DNA of 64,000 nucleotides. Source: Anaerolineae bacterium. GTDB taxonomy: Bacteria > Chloroflexota > Anaerolineae > Caldilineales > Caldilineaceae. The position numbers were made by a program, and so were the translations under genes. The notes beneath the pieces were generated by a model. It had not been told where the DNA came from. It did no database searches and worked only from the letters and a program-made list of their open reading frames with translations. Positions 1,453 through 13,065 of the stretch are shown here, piece after piece; positions within the stretch are counted from its first letter, which is position 1; each line of letters opens with the position of its first letter. The stretch spans positions 1 to 64,000 of the forward strand of contig JAUIHI010000022.1 of assembly GCA_030432295.1 (NCBI GenBank), written 5' to 3'.

Positions 1453-2046
1453 CTAATCTGTCGATGCTTGGAGAGTATCGGTCTTTTTGACTGGGAAGCT
1501 ATCGTGCTTGATATCAAACCCCTTGAGCGTAAAAGCGAAAAGACCTAGTGAGATAAGCAGGAGCGGCCAGCCAAATTCCAGATCAAACCCACCTAACCCC
1601 ACAATGAATTCAAAGAAAACGGCAAAGACTCCAAGTAGCCCCAGTCCGACTTTGGTATAGTTCCAACCAGCGCGGCTCAGTTTTGGTTTTGTTTTCAGCA
1701 CACTATAGGCTAACATGCCTAGCCCAACTGCGGTAGGATAGATCAGCGTCCAGGAATAGGCCCAGGTTGCTCGGTAGCCAGTCATGACGTTTACCCAAAA
1801 TATAAGGCCGGTCATCGTAGTGACGCTACCAATGATTGACCACACAACGCCGTTTCTTTCGTCCATGAATAAGGCGCAAAAAAACAGCACGACACCCGGC
1901 ACAATAATGCGGAAGGGCCATAAGTTGGCTCCCAGAAAATGACTGAGCGCGGCGTCAGCTAGGAGCAAGAGGCCCGTTAAAATTGTGATTTTGCCCAATA
2001 TTTCAATCATGGCGTGTAACGTCTGATTTTTATTTTTTTGTTTCAT
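1453..2046 (-). CDS. Six-TM membrane protein of unknown function
   Basis: A 197-residue protein made almost entirely of hydrophobic segments, about six transmembrane helices (roughly residues 18-36, 46-60, 68-88, 95-115, 132-150 and 158-173). The C-terminal tail is polar (FDIKHDSFPVKKTDTLQASTD region). The start is well supported: GAGGAG lies 7-8 bases upstream of ATG 2046. I do not recognise the family; the pattern of short helix hairpins resembles small integral proteins of the cell-envelope stress type, but no motif supports this. Directly upstream lies a coding remnant of the small-protein family described at 12787-13065. Confidence 0.75.
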   Translation of the reverse strand: MKQKNKNQTLHAMIEILGKITILTGLLLLADAALSHFLGANLWPFRIIVPGVVLFFCALFMDERNGVVWSIIGSVTTMTGLIFWVNVMTGYRATWAYSWTLIYPTAVGLGMLAYSVLKTKPKLSRAGWNYTKVGLGLLGVFAVFFEFIVGLGGFDLEFGWPLLLISLGLFAFTLKGFDIKHDSFPVKKTDTLQASTD

Positions 2047-2062
2047 TTTGAATCTCCTCGTT

Positions 2063-2110
2063 TTATTGTGAATGTGGGTTCACTGAGATGAGGGTTAACC
2101 TCAATCTTTT
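2063..2110 (-). pseudogene. 3'-end remnant of the ~90-aa small-protein family
   Basis: Read on the minus strand, 2110-2063 translates as KRLRLTLISVNPHSQ followed by TAA. This matches the C-terminus of the intact small proteins at 5950-6201 (NLGLKLISVNPQE) and 12787-13065 (AGMSLYSVNPVE). No reading frame for the rest of the gene is left upstream, so only the last 15 codons persist, 17 bases ahead of the next gene's start. Confidence 0.6.
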
Positions 2111-2177
2111 AAACTCAAATTGTAATTGATAGAAAGTTTTCTTATCGAAAAACATTCAAAACTGTAGTAGTCAAGAA

Positions 2178-2293
2178 GATGGTGGAATTTTCAACGCAGA
2201 GGCGCAAAGAAGCAGAGACGCAAAGAAATCGCTTTTCTCTCTGTACCTTTGCCTCTTTGCATCTTTGCGTTAAGAAATAGCCATTCCACCATC
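2178..2293. repeat. Long intergenic inverted repeat (CGCAAAG family)
   Basis: Outer arms GATGGTGGAAT (2178-2188) and ATTCCACCATC (2283-2293) are perfectly complementary. Inside them, tandem-like purine-rich units (GCAGAGGCGCAAAG, GCAGAGACGCAAAG) face CTTTGCCTCTTTGCATC and TTTGCGTT. The whole 116-bp element can fold into a long imperfect hairpin. It lies between two co-directional genes. Confidence 0.8.
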
Positions 2294-2339
2294 CCGTTGA
2301 CCAGTACAAAAAACATTCAAAACCTCAGAGGTTTTACCT

Positions 2340-3650
2340 TTACTCAGCCTCGTCGAGCATGGGAAGCGCTGGCTCCATCACATCAGCCAGATTGAGTTCC
2401 GGATCAGCGCCGTCATTGTTGTAAAGCATCACCACAATGGTGTCGGATTTAGGTATGTACGTGAGGACTGACCGGAATCCGGCAATGTAACCAGCATGCC
2501 GCATATTGTCTGCTTGCAGCATGATGCCCAAACCATTGGTGCTGTTAGGTGCGGGCGTCGTCATGACGGCCAATGATTCAGGATTGTCAAACAATGCCCC
2601 ATCGAATAGGCCACGACCGAAGGTTACCAAATCGAGCGCAGTAGAAACCAGGCCACCTGCTGACCAACCGACAGATTCATGTAGTTCCGTTAAATCGGCC
2701 ATTGCTTCCCCACTTCCTGTATAACCATGTACGGTGTCAGTGCGTGGTTCTTCATAACAATCCAGAAATGTTGATGTCATGCCCAATGGCTGATAGATAT
2801 ACGTGTCATATGCTTCTGCCAAAGGCATACCGGCGGCCTCTTCGATGATCATGCCGAGTAGGGTGTAGTTGGTGTTGCTATAGCGCCATTGTGTCCCTGG
2901 CTCAAACTGAGCATCTTTGCCAAAAACGTAGCGGGCAAGCGTGTCGTTCGGGTCTCGCTGGACACAATCGAGCGAGACATTCCCGGTCGTCTCATCCACG
3001 ACCATCTGCGTGAAGATATCTGGGTAGTACGCTTCGTGTTCAACCACATTAAACAGGCCGGATGTGTGTGCCAAAAGCTGGCGTAGGGTGATTCCGTCCC
3101 CATGAGGCAGTTCCCCAGCAACCTCTGGCAGCCAAAGCGCCAACGGGTCATCCAAGGTTAATACACCATCTTCTGCCATCTGTAGGATGACGACTGCGGT
3201 GAACATCTTGGTGATGCTGCCAATTCTAAACCCGCCATCGGGGAGCATGGGGCTGTCTGTCGCAATGTTGGCGAGACCGCTGGCTCCTTCAAACTGATAA
3301 GTTGGGGCATCGATCCAGAGGACCATGCCGGGGAGGAGTTCTTCTGCAGTCAACTCGTCCATTTTTGTCTGTATCTGGGCGGTCACATCTGTGATTGCTA
3401 CTTGAGGCTCGTCCTCGGCAACGGTATTATCTGTTTCTGCTGGTGTCTCCGTTGCATACTCTGTGGGCATCGGTTGGGGCTCGTCTTGAACGGCCGTTTC
3501 GCCTGTTTCGGCAGGCAGTTCGGTAGCGGCATCTGTGGGTTCCGCTTGGGGCTTCTCTGGAGGGCTGCTGCAACCGATCAACAGCAGCATAATCAAACCA
3601 AGCGTAAAAATAAGTCTTTTCGTCATCTGATTTCTATTGTGTTGCTTCAT
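2340..3650 (-). CDS. Serine hydrolase lipoprotein, class C beta-lactamase-like
   Basis: A 436-residue predicted lipoprotein: hydrophobic leader then lipobox LLIGC with Cys27. Residues 28-85 form an acidic Pro/Thr/Glu linker built from two similar ~26-residue units (ATELPAETGETAVQDEPQP and ATETPAETDNTVAEDEPQV). The catalytic domain has SITK at 145-148, YSN at 257-259 and HAG at 385-387, so the PF00144 active site is complete. It should act outside the cell on a D-amino-acid peptide, ester or amide; the exact substrate is unknown. GGGAG lies 8 bases before ATG 3650. A truncated close paralogue of its C-terminal half is at 10290-10706. Confidence 0.88.
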   Translation of the reverse strand: MKQHNRNQMTKRLIFTLGLIMLLLIGCSSPPEKPQAEPTDAATELPAETGETAVQDEPQPMPTEYATETPAETDNTVAEDEPQVAITDVTAQIQTKMDELTAEELLPGMVLWIDAPTYQFEGASGLANIATDSPMLPDGGFRIGSITKMFTAVVILQMAEDGVLTLDDPLALWLPEVAGELPHGDGITLRQLLAHTSGLFNVVEHEAYYPDIFTQMVVDETTGNVSLDCVQRDPNDTLARYVFGKDAQFEPGTQWRYSNTNYTLLGMIIEEAAGMPLAEAYDTYIYQPLGMTSTFLDCYEEPRTDTVHGYTGSGEAMADLTELHESVGWSAGGLVSTALDLVTFGRGLFDGALFDNPESLAVMTTPAPNSTNGLGIMLQADNMRHAGYIAGFRSVLTYIPKSDTIVVMLYNNDGADPELNLADVMEPALPMLDEAE

Positions 3651-3669
3651 TTTGAATCTCCCTGGTTTG

Positions 3670-3720
3670 TTATGAACGTGGATTCACTGAGATAAGGACT
3701 AACCCCAGATTGCTGAAATG
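3670..3720 (-). pseudogene. 3'-end remnant of the ~90-aa small-protein family
   Basis: The minus strand reads HFSNLGLVLISVNPRS and then TAA at 3672-3670, nearly the same as the C-terminus of the intact small protein at 5950-6201 (SNLGLKLISVNPQ). It ends 20 bases before the serine hydrolase start. Upstream of about 3720 the resemblance stops, where the chimeric pseudogene begins. Confidence 0.65.
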
Positions 3721-3741
3721 CCGCCGCTTCTCCTCAATGCA

Positions 3742-4172
3742 TTAGGCGGGTACTGCTGCGCTTTGCATCGTTGTCGCTGACTGACGCAGCAGGACGATGC
3801 CAAGCCATGCAAACCAAACGATTTGGGTTAGGCCAAAGATGCTGGCGCTGCTGGCAGCAAAAGCGGCCATGCGCTCGTGATCCCGATCCCGCAGGATGTA
3901 GATGTCCATCCAGTTGTCCATATAGCCGGCCAGATGGCCCACGGCCTCCCCAGTTTTGAGCAGATTCGGCACCTCGACCGGGGTGATGCCCAGATCAACC
4001 AGGGCCTTGGTGAAGGTGGCTCGCGTCCGAATGCTGTTGCCCTCAAAGGAAATCAGGCGGTCAGCCCCGCTTCACGAGGCAAGGCAAGACTGTCCGAGTT
4101 GTCGGCCAGGTCAAAAATCTGGTCGATCTCTGCGGGCGAGAGATCGTTGACTGTGATGATGTCTTTTTTCAT
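3742..4172 (-). pseudogene. Chimeric pseudogene: carbamoyltransferase N-terminus joined to a membrane-protein C-terminus
   Basis: From ATG 4172 the frame reads MKKDIITVNDLSPAEIDQIF..., typical of the N-terminus of aspartate/ornithine carbamoyltransferases, and stops at TGA 4055-4053. In another frame the reading resumes with ISFEGNSIRTRATF, the carbamoyl-phosphate loop (SxRTR), and continues to AAFAASS near 3850. The same frame then runs into IFGLTQIVWFAWLGI, almost identical to the C-terminus of the membrane protein at 5263-5946. So a frameshift breaks the first part and a recombination has replaced the catalytic second half. No functional carbamoyltransferase can result. Confidence 0.75.
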
Positions 4173-4203
4173 GGGTGTCCTCGATTCATATCCCCATCCC
4201 TGA

Positions 4204-5262: not shown

Positions 5263-5946
5263 TTATTCAAATGCGGGTGTTACTACTTCTGCTGCTTCGT
5301 CAGTGGCAGGCCGCAGCATGGCAATACCGAGCCATGCAAACCAAACGATTTGGGTCAGGCCAAAGATGTCGGCGCTGATTTCGCTTAGGGCCGGCACGAC
5401 GCTAACCACACCGGCGGCGCCAACCACGAAGCCGAGATAATGCAGGGTGCGGCCAAATGTACCGCTGCGCAGGCCAGCCACGCTGAGCAAAATCACCCAG
5501 ATGCCGCCAACCACTTCCACCCCGCCGCCCAGGCCGTTGAAGACAGACCCAATCGCCAGCCAGACGGTGGCCGCCTGTTCCGGGTTGGTGGCCGCCAAAG
5601 TCACGACAGTTTCCATACCGACGTTGTAAATCATGCCGCTGGCGATGACGAGCACCGACCAGATGATGCCGAAGGCGGTGGCGGTGCGCGCCAGGGCGGA
5701 ATTTTTGCCGTTCAGCCGCTCGTGCAGCGCCAGCGTCAGCACCACCAGTGACGCGCCCCAGGCGACGTAGACAATCAGCATCAGGGCAGTGAGCAGCCCC
5801 TGGTTTTCGACAATCGCCGTCACTTTGTCCAGCGGGTCGGCGATGCCGCCGACGTTTACAACGGCGATAAAGCCGATAAAGCCGATAATGTAGGCCAACG
5901 CTTCGTACAATGCGGCAACGCCGCCCCATTTCTGCAACTGCTTCAT
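5263..5946 (-). CDS. Multi-pass membrane protein, DUF4386-like
   Basis: A 227-residue hydrophobic protein with about six to seven transmembrane segments. The layout (short Lys-rich N-terminus, a first helix with GGVAALYEALAYIIGF, and a final helix IVWFAWLGIAML) resembles DUF4386-type proteins of Chloroflexota and Actinomycetota, which have no known function. AAGGAGAATAA lies just upstream of ATG 5946. The small protein 5950-6201 ends 3 bases before this start, suggesting translational coupling. Its last ~30 residues are duplicated in the chimeric pseudogene at 3742-4172. The same arrangement, small protein then membrane protein, recurs at 12787-13065 and 12032-12745. Confidence 0.75.
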   Translation of the reverse strand: MKQLQKWGGVAALYEALAYIIGFIGFIAVVNVGGIADPLDKVTAIVENQGLLTALMLIVYVAWGASLVVLTLALHERLNGKNSALARTATAFGIIWSVLVIASGMIYNVGMETVVTLAATNPEQAATVWLAIGSVFNGLGGGVEVVGGIWVILLSVAGLRSGTFGRTLHYLGFVVGAAGVVSVVPALSEISADIFGLTQIVWFAWLGIAMLRPATDEAAEVVTPAFE

Positions 5947-5949
5947 GAT

Positions 5950-6201
5950 TTATTCTCCTTTGTAGTTCGATGATTCTTGTGGATTGACGGAGATGAGCTT
6001 CAGACCGAGATTGCTAACCTTCTTCAAAATACCGTGCAGCGCGGCTTGGTCTCGGACAGGGCCAGTAAGCGTAGAACGACCGTTTGCGAGGCGAGCCAGC
6101 GAAAACCCTTCAAACCATTCTTGCCAGCCATCATCGAGATGACCTTCAATTTCAATGTCGTACTGCGTTTGTTTCTCGGTGCTGTTGTTCATCATGCCCA
6201 T
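5950..6201 (-). CDS. Small conserved protein (~80-90 aa), paralogue of 12787-13065
   Basis: About 83 residues with no signal peptide or membrane segment. The core IEIEGHLDDGWQEWFEGF...LTGPVRDQAALHGILKKV...SVNP is shared with the paralogue at 12787-13065, so the conserved parts are GHLD-W-WF, TGPV-DQAALHG and SVNP. Function unknown; the compact alpha/beta look suggests a soluble ligand-binding or scaffold protein. In both loci it lies just upstream of a membrane protein and downstream of, or near, a MalT-like regulator. Three in-frame ATGs (6201, 6195, 6192) could start it and none has a strong ribosome site. Confidence 0.75.
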   Translation of the reverse strand: MGMMNNSTEKQTQYDIEIEGHLDDGWQEWFEGFSLARLANGRSTLTGPVRDQAALHGILKKVSNLGLKLISVNPQESSNYKGE

Positions 6202-6358
6202 AGAATACGATTTTGGGCAGCACAAGTCCCCACCACAAACTGTGGTTGTGGGTGAAAAAAACTGTAGGTCTGTGGGGGAAAAAATGTAGGGGATGGATAA
6301 AAACAGCAGGGGAAGGGTTAGAAACGGTTTCCAGGCATCGAGAATGATTGTTTCGCCT

Positions 6359-9040
6359 CTATACCAATCCTAGCTCTCGAGCTTTAGAAACGGCAACGGT
6401 TCGCTTGCGCACGCCAAGCTTGCCATAGATATTTTTGTTGTGGTAAAGCACCGTGTTGAGGCTGATGAAAAGCTGGGTGGCAATCTCTTTGTTTTTTAGC
6501 CCGGCAGCAATAAGCTGCAAAATCTCGAGCTCGCGCTCGCTGAGCGGCTCCACCAAAGGTTGCTGCTGAACGACCGGTTCCCCAAATGCCGACAACAGGC
6601 GGGCGGCGTAGTTGGGAGCGATGTTGTGAGAAACAGCCGTTTTCAATAGGTCAGCCAGCGGTGCGCCCTCCCGCACAAATAGCTGCATATACCCTTGCGG
6701 TTGCGCTAGCCGCAGTGAGTTCGCCAAGTGAGTCAGTGCATCTTGACGATTGCCCTGCGCATCCTCTGCCAAAGCCAGCAGCAGGAAACATTCAATCTCG
6801 CTCTCCGTTCTTTTTCCGGCACGCGCCGACTGCAGCAGCCGGTTGAGCAAAGAGAAGGTCTCCTCTAGCAGCGTGCGCTCTTTGTTGCGCCGATAGTAGG
6901 CCACAGTCAATCTTGCTAGCGTCAGGTGCTCATATTCACGCAAAAAGGCTGGCTCGTCTGCAGAGGAAAGATTGTGTCGGGTTGCCCAATCCTGCGCCTT
7001 CGATAGCTCACCTTGAGCCAGCCATACGCGGCACTTGATCGCTTCAATCGGGGCATATTCAGCCATGCGCCCCCGTCGATAATTCGCAGTTGCGCGGTCA
7101 AGATGTTCCTCTGCCGCCGCCAAATCCCCCGCGGCCCACGCAAGGGTGGCTTTCGCTACCTCGTGCTGATGCTCACCTTCTGGCTCGCCTGCCTGTTCAC
7201 TTTGCTTGGCGCTTTGGTTCAAATGGTGCCAAGCCGTCTCTAAATTCCCTTGCTCACAGAAAATCTGACAGAGATTACGGTGCAACATGGCAATGGAGCG
7301 AAACAATGGCTTCTCCCTTTGCGCAATGAGCTGGAGGGCTTGCTCATTAATCTCAATTGCTTCAATGAGCCGCCCAAGCCTAACTTTTATCTCGGCCAAC
7401 CCCAGCATGCCGCCGGCCGCGAAAAGCAGGTTGTCTGCTCTTAAAAAATGGCCAATGGCAACATCAAAAGAGTCCGCAGCGGCAAGCATCTCGCCCTCTG
7501 CCCGTTGAGCCATGCCGAGAGTGACGGTGGGAATACCACGATAGAAATGGTCGTCAGCGGGCAGGAGCGCGAGCGTCTTTTGAGCATATTGCTTCGTGGA
7601 CGCCATATCGCCCTTTCCATAAGCCAGATAGGCGCGTGCGGCAGAGAGAGTTGCTGGCAATGCCTCAAATTCTCGTTTGTCTGCCACAACCATGTCGCTA
7701 GAGGGATTTTCTAGCCAGTGTTCGGCGTCTTGCAGTCGGGATTCCGCAGCGGCAAACTGGCCGGTGTCCAATAACGCCCAGCCGTATCCCGCACTGAGTA
7801 CGGGGCGGGTGCGGACCAGCGTATCAGGCAATGTCTGGACCCATTTAAGCCATTTCATCTCCTGAAAGCTACGATCCATGTTGCGCCAGGCCAGCTCGAT
7901 TTGCTCTGCCGCAAGCTCGAAGTCGCTGGCCGCCAAGGCATGAGCGATGGCTTTATGTCGAACATTCTGCTTGGCAAACCAGCGGCTGGCCCGTTGATGA
8001 CTCATAATTGTCAGCTCAGGCCGCTTAGCCCGCGTATGCGCTTGCAGCACATCGGCGAAGAGATGGTGATAACGATACCAATGTCGCTGCTCGTCAAGCG
8101 GCACAACGAAGAGGTTCTTTCGTTCTAGTGATTCAAGCATCTCTTGAGCGCCGGACATCTGCGTAACGGCCGCACACAGTGGCCCGCTCAGTTGCTCCAA
8201 AACGGCCGTCGCTAACAAAAACGTGCGAACCTCGTCAGGCTGATGCAACAATGTTTCCTCAACCAAATAATCAATCACAAAGCGGTGACTGCCAGTGAAG
8301 TTTGCAACAAACTGATCCAAATCAGCAGTCGCCCGTTGCTGCATCGACAGCGCAGCCATTTGTAGCCCAGCAATCCATCCTTCGGTGCGATTTTCTAGCG
8401 CAGCAATCTGATCTGTAGTCAACAACAGCCCCATTGCTTGCTGCAAAAATTGAGCGGCTTCAGCTTTCGTAAAGCGTAGCTGATCAGCACGTAATTCAAT
8501 GAGTTGACCGCGCACTCGCAGCCGGGATATAGGAAAGCCGGGATCGCTGCGACTGGTAAGCACAAGCATCATTTGCGGCGGCATCCAGTCCAGCAACATT
8601 GCCACTGCAGCATCCACATCCGCAGAGTCAACCGTGTGATAGTCATCCAGAACAAGGCAGAAGGGATGAGAAATGGTGGCAACATCGCTCACAAATGCTT
8701 TGACCAATCCTGTATAGGACTGTGGCTGACCAAACTGTAGCAGTTCACCTAGGGTGGACTTCGTGCCGAGAAACGGCCTTATTGCAGCCAGCATGTACTG
8801 GAAAAACTGCTGCGCGTCACTGTCATCTTCATCAAGCGAGACCCAACAGCTTTGCACATCGTTTAACTGATTAAGCCATTCGATAACAAGCGTCGTTTTC
8901 CCATATCCTGCCGGGGCCGAGATGAGAATAAGCTTGGTGTTCGGGGTGGGGGCGAGATGCTCCAAAAGGCGTGGTCGATTGACCCGGTTGGTCTGGATCG
9001 GGGGCATATACAGTTTTGTTGTCAAAAAAGCGTCAGCCAT
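6359..9040 (-). CDS. LuxR-family MalT-like (LAL) transcriptional regulator
   Basis: An 893-residue regulator of the large ATP-binding LuxR (LAL/MalT) type. The N-terminus has the usual TTKLYMPPIQ opening and Walker A APAGYGKTT at about 43-51, with Walker B CLVLDDYH near 130. A winged-helix/arm region follows, then a long helical TPR-like section (about 400-800), and a C-terminal LuxR HTH (SERELEILQLIAAGLKNKEIA...). These STAND ATPases bind an inducer, multimerise with ATP and activate transcription. It is the first gene of a minus-strand set whose next member is the small protein at 5950-6201, a likely target or partner. A second copy of this class is at 13508-16258. Confidence 0.92.
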   Translation of the reverse strand: MADAFLTTKLYMPPIQTNRVNRPRLLEHLAPTPNTKLILISAPAGYGKTTLVIEWLNQLNDVQSCWVSLDEDDSDAQQFFQYMLAAIRPFLGTKSTLGELLQFGQPQSYTGLVKAFVSDVATISHPFCLVLDDYHTVDSADVDAAVAMLLDWMPPQMMLVLTSRSDPGFPISRLRVRGQLIELRADQLRFTKAEAAQFLQQAMGLLLTTDQIAALENRTEGWIAGLQMAALSMQQRATADLDQFVANFTGSHRFVIDYLVEETLLHQPDEVRTFLLATAVLEQLSGPLCAAVTQMSGAQEMLESLERKNLFVVPLDEQRHWYRYHHLFADVLQAHTRAKRPELTIMSHQRASRWFAKQNVRHKAIAHALAASDFELAAEQIELAWRNMDRSFQEMKWLKWVQTLPDTLVRTRPVLSAGYGWALLDTGQFAAAESRLQDAEHWLENPSSDMVVADKREFEALPATLSAARAYLAYGKGDMASTKQYAQKTLALLPADDHFYRGIPTVTLGMAQRAEGEMLAAADSFDVAIGHFLRADNLLFAAGGMLGLAEIKVRLGRLIEAIEINEQALQLIAQREKPLFRSIAMLHRNLCQIFCEQGNLETAWHHLNQSAKQSEQAGEPEGEHQHEVAKATLAWAAGDLAAAEEHLDRATANYRRGRMAEYAPIEAIKCRVWLAQGELSKAQDWATRHNLSSADEPAFLREYEHLTLARLTVAYYRRNKERTLLEETFSLLNRLLQSARAGKRTESEIECFLLLALAEDAQGNRQDALTHLANSLRLAQPQGYMQLFVREGAPLADLLKTAVSHNIAPNYAARLLSAFGEPVVQQQPLVEPLSERELEILQLIAAGLKNKEIATQLFISLNTVLYHNKNIYGKLGVRKRTVAVSKARELGLV

Positions 9041-10222: not shown

Positions 10223-10289
10223 TTGTTCTCTTTTCGTAGAGTGCGCACCACACGACGCTTATTGGGATTTTCCATGATTTTTCTGCTTC

Positions 10290-10706
10290 TCACTCCGCCA
10301 CCCACAGCACCGGGAGCACAGGCTCCAGCAAATCCGCCATATCTGATTCGGGATCGGCGCCATCGTGGTTGTAAACCATCACCACAACTGTATCGATCTC
10401 AGGCGCGTAATTCAGAACCGATCGAAAACCGGCAATATAGCCTGCATGCCCCATAGTTTCTCCCTGGAGCGTGATGCCCAGACCGTAGGAACTGCCAGGG
10501 GTGGGTGTCGTCATCGCCACCAGGGAGGCTGGGTCATCGAACAGCGCCCCACCGAACAACCCCCGGGCAAAGGTGACCAGGTCCGGTGCGGTCGAAACCT
10601 GGCTGCCCGCTGACCAACCGATGGATTCATGCAGTTCCGTGACATCGGTCATGGTATCCCCAGAGGCCGTATAGCCGTGTACCAAGTCAATGGCGAGGGC
10701 GCGGTT
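10290..10706 (-). pseudogene. Truncated serine hydrolase (C-terminal third only)
   Basis: The frame between an upstream stop near 10706 and the stop at 10290 reads VHGYTASG...ELHESIGWSAG...MGHAGYIAGFRSV, closely matching residues about 307-436 of the lipoprotein at 2340-3650. The SxxK and YxN motifs are missing, so it cannot be active. The adjacent sequence is unrelated, so the copy was cut by a recombination or deletion. Confidence 0.8.
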
Positions 10707-12031: not shown

Positions 12032-12745
12032 TTATGCCGTTTCCAAGACTCTCTGCTTCCACTGTTCCACGTTCACGCCTTTGATCACCAGCCACAGGGG
12101 CAGAAGGACTTCGCCGAGGAAAGTGAATTCGCTGAAGGTCACGCCGAAACTGGGAACCAGAAAGAAGACAAATGAGTCGATCAGGTAGCCGAAGCAGCCA
12201 ATCATCAACAGGATGCCCAGTATTCTAGGCAGAAAACCGGACTTGAAGATCAGGTAGCCCATGGGAAAGAGCCAAAGCCCCCAAAAAACCTGAGCGATGA
12301 AGATGCCGTACTCATGCAGGTCGAGAAAGAAGGCGACCATTGCCTGAATTTGATCTGTGGTGAAGGCTGCCAGGTAATCCGCGCCGTTCAGGAGCAGGAG
12401 GACGGCCAGATGAGTAAGCTCATTGAGGAATGCGATAGGGACGCCGAGCAGAAGAAAGATCACCATCAACTGGGCCATGCCTCTGTTGACCGGTTTGAGC
12501 AGTTTGTACAGATACAAGACCACAAAGATGTTGACCAACTGGGCGGCGATAGCGCTCACAATGCCCAGACGAAACAGGGACTCATTGGCCCGGATATTGC
12601 TGATGGTGGCAGCGATGTCCCCAGACACAAAAAGTGTGGTGGGAATATACAGAATGCCGAGAATGCCCAGGGGAACCAGAAGCAGATAGAGGAATCCGGC
12701 GATACGGGCGGTCTTGTTTGGATTGATGTTGTTCTGCGTTGTCAT
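12032..12745 (-). CDS. DUF4386 family membrane protein
   Basis: A 237-residue integral membrane protein with about seven hydrophobic segments. The opening NPNKTARIAGFLYLLLVPLG, the ANESLFRLGIVS section and GFLPRILGILLMIGCFGYL are the hallmarks of the DUF4386 family, whose function is unknown. It follows the small protein at 12787-13065 after a gap of 41 bases, the same order seen at 5950-6201/5263-5946. Confidence 0.85.
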   Translation of the reverse strand: MTTQNNINPNKTARIAGFLYLLLVPLGILGILYIPTTLFVSGDIAATISNIRANESLFRLGIVSAIAAQLVNIFVVLYLYKLLKPVNRGMAQLMVIFLLLGVPIAFLNELTHLAVLLLLNGADYLAAFTTDQIQAMVAFFLDLHEYGIFIAQVFWGLWLFPMGYLIFKSGFLPRILGILLMIGCFGYLIDSFVFFLVPSFGVTFSEFTFLGEVLLPLWLVIKGVNVEQWKQRVLETA

Positions 12746-12786: not shown

Positions 12787-13065
12787 TTACTTGTCTGGTT
12801 CAACCGGGTTGACCGAGTAGAGAGACATTCCTGCATCCCGCACCTTTCGGAGCAGTCCATAGAGTGCCGCCTGATCAACCACCGGGCCGGTCAACAGCGT
12901 ATCGCCGTCGTCGTCCAGGGTGATGGCCATGCCCCCGAACCAGTCGCTCCATCGCTCATCCAGATGCCCTCGGATACGGATCTCATACTGTTGGGACCTG
13001 TCCACGTCCAGGTTTGTAGCAGTGCCACTGTCTTTATTTGTGGATAGGGGTTGCTGCCTATCCAT
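12787..13065 (-). CDS. Small conserved protein (92 aa), paralogue of 5950-6201
   Basis: A 92-residue soluble protein. From residue ~26 it matches the other copy: YEIRIRGHLDERWSDWFGGM, LLTGPVVDQAALYGLLRKV and SLYSVNP. The first 25 residues are polar and not conserved. AAGGAGG stands 7 bases before ATG 13065, so this start is firm. It lies between the 38-residue ORF upstream and a DUF4386 protein downstream, in the cluster led by the MalT-like regulator at 13508-16258. Function unknown; its repeated presence beside LAL regulators suggests it belongs to their regulon. Confidence 0.82.
   Translation of the reverse strand: MDRQQPLSTNKDSGTATNLDVDRSQQYEIRIRGHLDERWSDWFGGMAITLDDDGDTLLTGPVVDQAALYGLLRKVRDAGMSLYSVNPVEPDK

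Follow-up and report, generated by a model that had tools for sequence, protein, structure and literature searches.

The upstream context shared by a serine hydrolase gene and a six-TM membrane protein gene is very probably a copied gene start, produced when the start of the six-TM gene was duplicated and fused onto the hydrolase gene during rearrangement of their cluster. The window analysed here is the whole 64,000-nucleotide stretch of Anaerolineae bacterium contig JAUIHI010000022.1, and coordinates without another source refer to it.

A start region shared by two genes

DNA alignment of the regions around the two starts identified an 82-bp segment in two copies, with 67 identical bases (82%, E=2e-15). 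The genes and segments concerned are as follows.

1453-2046, minus strand: six-TM membrane protein, 197 aa, no Pfam family; donor of the copied start
2022-2103, minus strand: copy 1 of the 82-bp repeat, comprising a small-gene tail, a Shine-Dalgarno sequence (SD), the ATG and the first eight codons (MKQKNKNQ) of the six-TM gene, in native position
2340-3650, minus strand: serine hydrolase, Beta-lactamase family PF00144, lipoprotein-like; native start at Met9 (base 3626), residues 1-8 grafted
3626-3707, minus strand: copy 2 of the 82-bp repeat, the equivalent segment fused in frame to the hydrolase, of which it encodes residues 1-8 (MKQHNRNQ)

In both genes the repeat runs from within the tail of a degenerate small-protein gene, through the SD and the ATG, to the end of codon 8, so that both proteins open with MKQ[KH]N[KR]NQ. 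The preliminary description had assigned one immediate upstream context to four genes and had called for an alignment of their upstream DNA. The similarity is well above chance for the six-TM and hydrolase pair, and its continuation eight codons past the ATG had gone unnoted. The other two genes, both of the DUF4386 type, do not share it; they are linked to the pair only by the protein family of the small gene that precedes them, and DNA comparison within the window found the 82-bp DNA neither in the intact small genes nor in their DUF4386 partners.

Native owner and recipient of the start

The nearest homologue of the six-TM protein (79% identity, aligned from residue 1) is encoded in the Anaerolineae MAG L091, whose locus is the same as the G137 locus. 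Its N-terminus is MKQQSNKQ, given as MKQQSNKQKLHA; the protein opens MKQQSNKQKLHATIGILGKITILTG and is preceded by ACGAGGAGAATCAAAATG, and the start region that it shares with the window reads ACGAGGAGA[AT]TCAAAATG. Several distant six-TM homologues align from residue 1 or 2 and carry a short polar N-terminal stretch such as MKKQNK or DKQSDK. Because the L091 protein begins with MKQ and the distant homologues align from their first or second residue, the eight-codon start is native to the six-TM gene. Identity to the L091 start is 35/40 for the native six-TM copy versus 30/40 for the hydrolase copy. We also considered the idea that both N-termini are grafts from a lost third gene, which was dropped since L091 shows the MKQ start to be native to the six-TM gene.

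The closest homologues of the hydrolase, in G017 (72%) and on contig C51 of the same assembly (68%), both begin at the equivalent of Met9. Residues 1-8 are therefore foreign to the hydrolase and, given that the six-TM gene owns the corresponding codons, represent a duplicated six-TM start to which the hydrolase has become fused. The G017 and C51 genes are preceded by a different leader of their own, GGAAAATCACATG. In the window that original leader is lost and no SD is left before Met9; the join, ...AATCAG/ATGACG, lies at the 6-bp sequence AAATCA, which is common, in register, to six-TM codons 7-8 and to the hydrolase leader of the homologues. To judge from this arrangement, the captured start most likely now translates the hydrolase, adding an eight-residue basic extension before the signal peptide. 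The captured GGGAG...ATG start may be useful to the hydrolase, Met9 being without an SD.

Remnants of the small-protein gene

The preliminary description had also recognised the 3' ends of a small-protein gene ahead of the two unrelated genes. Both peptides were located on the minus strand.

2066-2098 (stop 2063-2065), minus strand: relic 1, LTLISVNPHSQ-stop, degenerate small-protein-gene 3' end upstream of the six-TM gene
3673-3714 (stop 3670-3672), minus strand: relic 2, SNLGLVLISVNPRS-stop, degenerate small-protein-gene 3' end upstream of the serine hydrolase

A tail profile built from the last 27 conserved residues of about 85 family members was run against the window in all six frames. 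First and second place went to the intact small genes, with 54 bits each, followed by relic 2 at rank 3 (16.8 bits, E=5e-4) and relic 1 at rank 4 (9.9 bits, E=0.06). Top scores in 20 shuffled windows ranged from 4.4 to 12.8, so relic 2 exceeds all 20, while the score of relic 1 is by itself not significant against them; the identity of relic 1 is backed by its DNA identity to relic 2 over the repeat. In an ungapped, profile-free scan of the examined loci, the nearest DNA to relic 2 besides relic 1 was, among the matches listed, almost all in-frame 3' ends of small-protein genes, the top partner being in G019 (28/36 bases). Both sites correspond to the conserved C-terminal segment of the family, [RS][DN]LGLxLxSVNP, near a stop and ahead of the next gene. 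The family core GHL...W...TGPV.DQAAL.G.L is absent in frame upstream of them, and the open segments span only 23 and 30 codons, which makes both sites relics rather than genes.

The intact family comprises proteins of 80-90 aa with the pattern DQAALxGLL...LISVNP. Over 550 loci were recognised in Chloroflexota, Actinobacteria, Cyanobacteria and others, and no Pfam or NCBIfam model scored above cut-off. The small gene mostly stands before DUF4386, DUF6326, DUF2306 or Zn-ADH genes, frequently with a 4-base overlap, and is sometimes fused to DUF6326; a literature search found no paper naming DUF4386. A beta-beta-beta-alpha-beta fold is predicted for the small protein (pLDDT 79), and a fold search returned weak ferredoxin-like matches only. 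One genome search also linked the small protein, at 30% identity (E=8e-4), to the C-terminal portion of an ABC-transporter ATPase at L008 (contig C36, 45236-45424). The idea that the small protein is a stand-alone relative of this C-terminal domain was not confirmed, as no Pfam family covers that ATPase domain, the small-protein family has no Pfam or NCBIfam match above cut-off and the fold search was weak.

Cluster context

Comparison of gene orders shows that the cluster of LuxR/MalT regulator, small protein and DUF4386 genes in the window is heavily rearranged. Its further components are listed below.

2163-2308, strand not assigned: MITE-like element, 146 bp, inserted between relic 1 and the hydrolase and flanked by target-site duplications of 15 bp (2148-2162 and 2309-2323)
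3739-3850, minus strand: 3'-end relic of a DUF4386-like gene, 88% to window 5312-5377; it also matches the end of the L091 DUF4386 gene that precedes the six-TM gene
3843-4185, minus strand: 5'-part relic of an aspartate/ornithine carbamoyltransferase gene, frameshifted (Pfam OTCace_N E=3e-7; 91% DNA identity to G017)
5263-5946, minus strand: DUF4386-like membrane protein (DUF4386a), natural partner of the small gene
5950-6192, minus strand: intact small protein, 80 aa, module 1
6359-9040, minus strand: LuxR/MalT-type regulator heading module 1
12032-12745, minus strand: DUF4386 membrane protein, partner of the second small gene
12787-13065, minus strand: second intact small protein, module 2

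In G017 the order is LuxR/MalT, small gene, DUF4386, glycine-rich protein, ADH, hydrolase A and hydrolase B. Module 2 of the window (16321-10290) retains this order, but with just the last third of hydrolase A. A second module of LuxR, small gene and DUF4386 (9040-5263) and a string of remnants precede hydrolase B (1273-155). The remnants run in the order carbamoyltransferase 5' part, DUF4386 3' end, small-gene 3' end, fusion of the six-TM start to hydrolase A, MITE, small-gene 3' end and six-TM gene. The two hydrolase genes are immediate neighbours, the second after the first, in G017 and on C51; in the window they are separated by the six-TM gene and the MITE. The L091 order is LuxR, DUF4386a, six-TM, small gene, DUF4386, ADH, ADH and hydrolase. 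Relic 2 keeps the order of DUF4386 tail, small-gene tail and six-TM start, and in L091 DUF4386a stands directly before the six-TM gene. Upstream of the L091 six-TM gene no clear small-gene tail was found, and the adjacency of small gene and six-TM gene is for this reason read from the window alone.

The MITE-like element has 26-bp inverted ends (TGTA...TACA), a target-site duplication (AAAAACATTCAAAAC), multiple near-identical copies and no coding capacity. The genome has about 40 such sites, most of them 90-99% identical, and direct repeats of about 15 bp were present at most of the 12 copies examined.

Further rearranged loci were observed in the same genome. Window positions 10282-10690 encode the C-terminal third of a second serine hydrolase, with 83-86% DNA identity to the G017 and C51 hydrolases, to which it is nearer than to the complete hydrolase of the window (2340-3650). 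On contig C20, L011 8127-8579 is a 94%-identical copy of window 5891-6342, in which the small gene is intact and 96% identical at the protein level. The DUF4386 partner at this locus stops after 22 codons, its ATG changed to ACG; an alpha/beta hydrolase gene and then a complete DUF4386 gene follow. A search of a plasmid collection gave no match.

Proposed origin of the fusion

Duplication of the six-TM start and its fusion onto the hydrolase would have proceeded from an ancestral cluster of LuxR/MalT, small protein, DUF4386 and six-TM genes. The small gene before the six-TM gene would have decayed down to its last codons, after which a segment with this tail, the six-TM ribosome-binding site, the ATG and the first eight codons would have been duplicated. 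One copy would have kept starting the six-TM gene, and the other would have become attached, in frame, to the serine hydrolase gene of the same cluster at its native start codon. The simplest join would be illegitimate recombination at the 6-bp microhomology (six-TM ...AAATCAG; hydrolase leader ...AAATCAC-ATG; product ...AAATCAG-ATG). We infer this join through the homologues, from which the leader is read because the original hydrolase leader of the window is gone. Two routes would lead to the present arrangement: tandem duplication of a cluster piece and then removal of the DNA between six-TM codon 8 and the hydrolase ATG, or a single tandem duplication that made this join, one copy being lost afterwards. 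The duplicated but unfused intermediate was seen in no genome examined. The tails would be passive debris, and the event appears to be natural and old, given that the copies are 82% identical.

The preliminary description had offered two explanations of its own, a recombination hot spot at the end of the small gene or a translational lead-in. It is highly improbable that unrelated genes are inserted time and again at the small-gene 3' end, with this end acting as a hot spot or a site-specific joining site. There are two joins within the window, and a third copy of the small gene, that on C20, is followed by a truncated DUF4386 partner and then the alpha/beta hydrolase gene. However, both window copies descend from one segment, and the breakpoints differ, six-TM codon 8 versus DUF4386 codon 22; as its breakpoint lies elsewhere in the partner gene, the C20 locus reflects cluster turnover rather than a single site. 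Further relics, which had been suggested as a genome-wide search, did not turn up either: a pattern search found 13 [I/L]SVNP-coding sites in the genome, of which just four belonged to the family, namely one intact copy in the window, one on C20, and both relics. DNA searches found no third copy of the 82-bp segment in the 6.7-Mb genome and none in the whole genomes of 297 relatives, at most the best two candidates being scored in most of these, and one weak relic candidate emerged from the loci that surround intact members of the family, about 0.9 Mb in all.

The proposed lead-in fared differently in its two parts. The copied segment does supply a ribosome-binding site, an ATG and eight codons that the hydrolase now most likely uses, but the tail itself is no working leader. 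It seems extremely unlikely that the tail persists as a short leader whose translation is coupled to that of the downstream gene, even though intact members of the family run into the following gene or end shortly before it, with a 4-base stop/start overlap in 20 of 76. In relic 2, no ATG, GTG or TTG occurs between the preceding in-frame stop and the stop that ends the relic; the sole in-frame ATG of relic 1 lacks an SD and lies inside the target-site duplication of the MITE, and the closest six-TM homologue, in L091, shows no clear tail. Selection of the shared segment as a regulatory mRNA or DNA element is also highly improbable. It would recall a leader of about 50 bp that stands in 48 copies ahead of several protein families in related clusters, and a pair of copies in G047, almost identical over about 90 bp, that ends at the ATG of two unalignable genes. 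That leader, however, differs in sequence and is absent before both window genes, and the two 82-bp copies are predicted to fold differently and gave no Rfam match. Fusion of a duplicated six-TM start thus remains the preferred reading, and an event of an ordinary mechanistic kind accounts for the puzzling shared upstream context.

Repeated leaders in other Anaerolineae

The leader of about 50 bp found in other Anaerolineae contains an SD, has the consensus AAGTCCAATTCAATGAAACTCATCCATATCGTTCAAAAAAGGAGAnAAAAATGAA and stands before several gene families beside the small gene in the examined loci. It was observed at L173, L140, L053, L046, L062, L065, L069, L078, L174-L177 and others, with up to three strong copies per locus. 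The two G047 copies diverge right after the ATG, and the proteins that follow show no detectable similarity; some other copies stand before distantly related genes. In-frame fusions of the small gene with its downstream neighbour occur in several genomes, some of these fusions running through this leader. A tentative and rather doubtful extension of these observations is that start regions of about 50-90 bp, ending at or a few codons past the start codon, undergo recurrent copying between genes in the Anaerolineae clusters of LuxR/MalT, small-protein and membrane-protein genes, and that the window and G047 pairs are independent products of one ongoing process. If so, copying of start regions would be a way in which these clusters recruit and express new genes, unrelated neighbours would come to share a leader, a ribosome-binding site and first residues, and the clusters would form a natural record of newly arrived genes gaining a working translation start.

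Comparison with known systems

Intact members of the small-protein family resemble translationally coupled pairs of a small gene and a membrane protein gene, in that they often overlap their partner by 4 bp or end a few bases before it, and some are fused to DUF6326. The relics differ from such pairs in having lost the start and body of the small gene, and therefore provide no coupling. They are closer to the gene remnants and pseudogene tails of rearranged bacterial clusters, since the breakpoints in the window likewise hold gene fragments, namely small-gene and DUF4386 3' ends and a carbamoyltransferase 5' part; unlike such remnants elsewhere, one in the window would have been preserved by riding with a used start region.

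PMC11111574 documents tandem duplication with illegitimate joining as a route by which genes capture expression signals, and the promoter or start-capture cases described there include the Salmonella his genes, the citrate transporter in the E. coli long-term experiment and the activation of transferred genes. As in these cases, a gene in the window appears to have gained the expression start of its neighbour through a duplication or deletion with little or no homology at the join. The window differs from them in that the capture brought in a translation start plus eight codons, yielding an N-terminal extension, and in that the event is seen by comparison only. The native donor is identified through the six-TM gene and its L091 homologue, and the homologues of the recipient in G017 and on C51 lack the captured part. 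The similar N-termini of unrelated neighbouring proteins can be copied start regions and call for caution before they are read as homology. The event in the window is a tidy case of known gene-start capture and not of a recombination hot spot.
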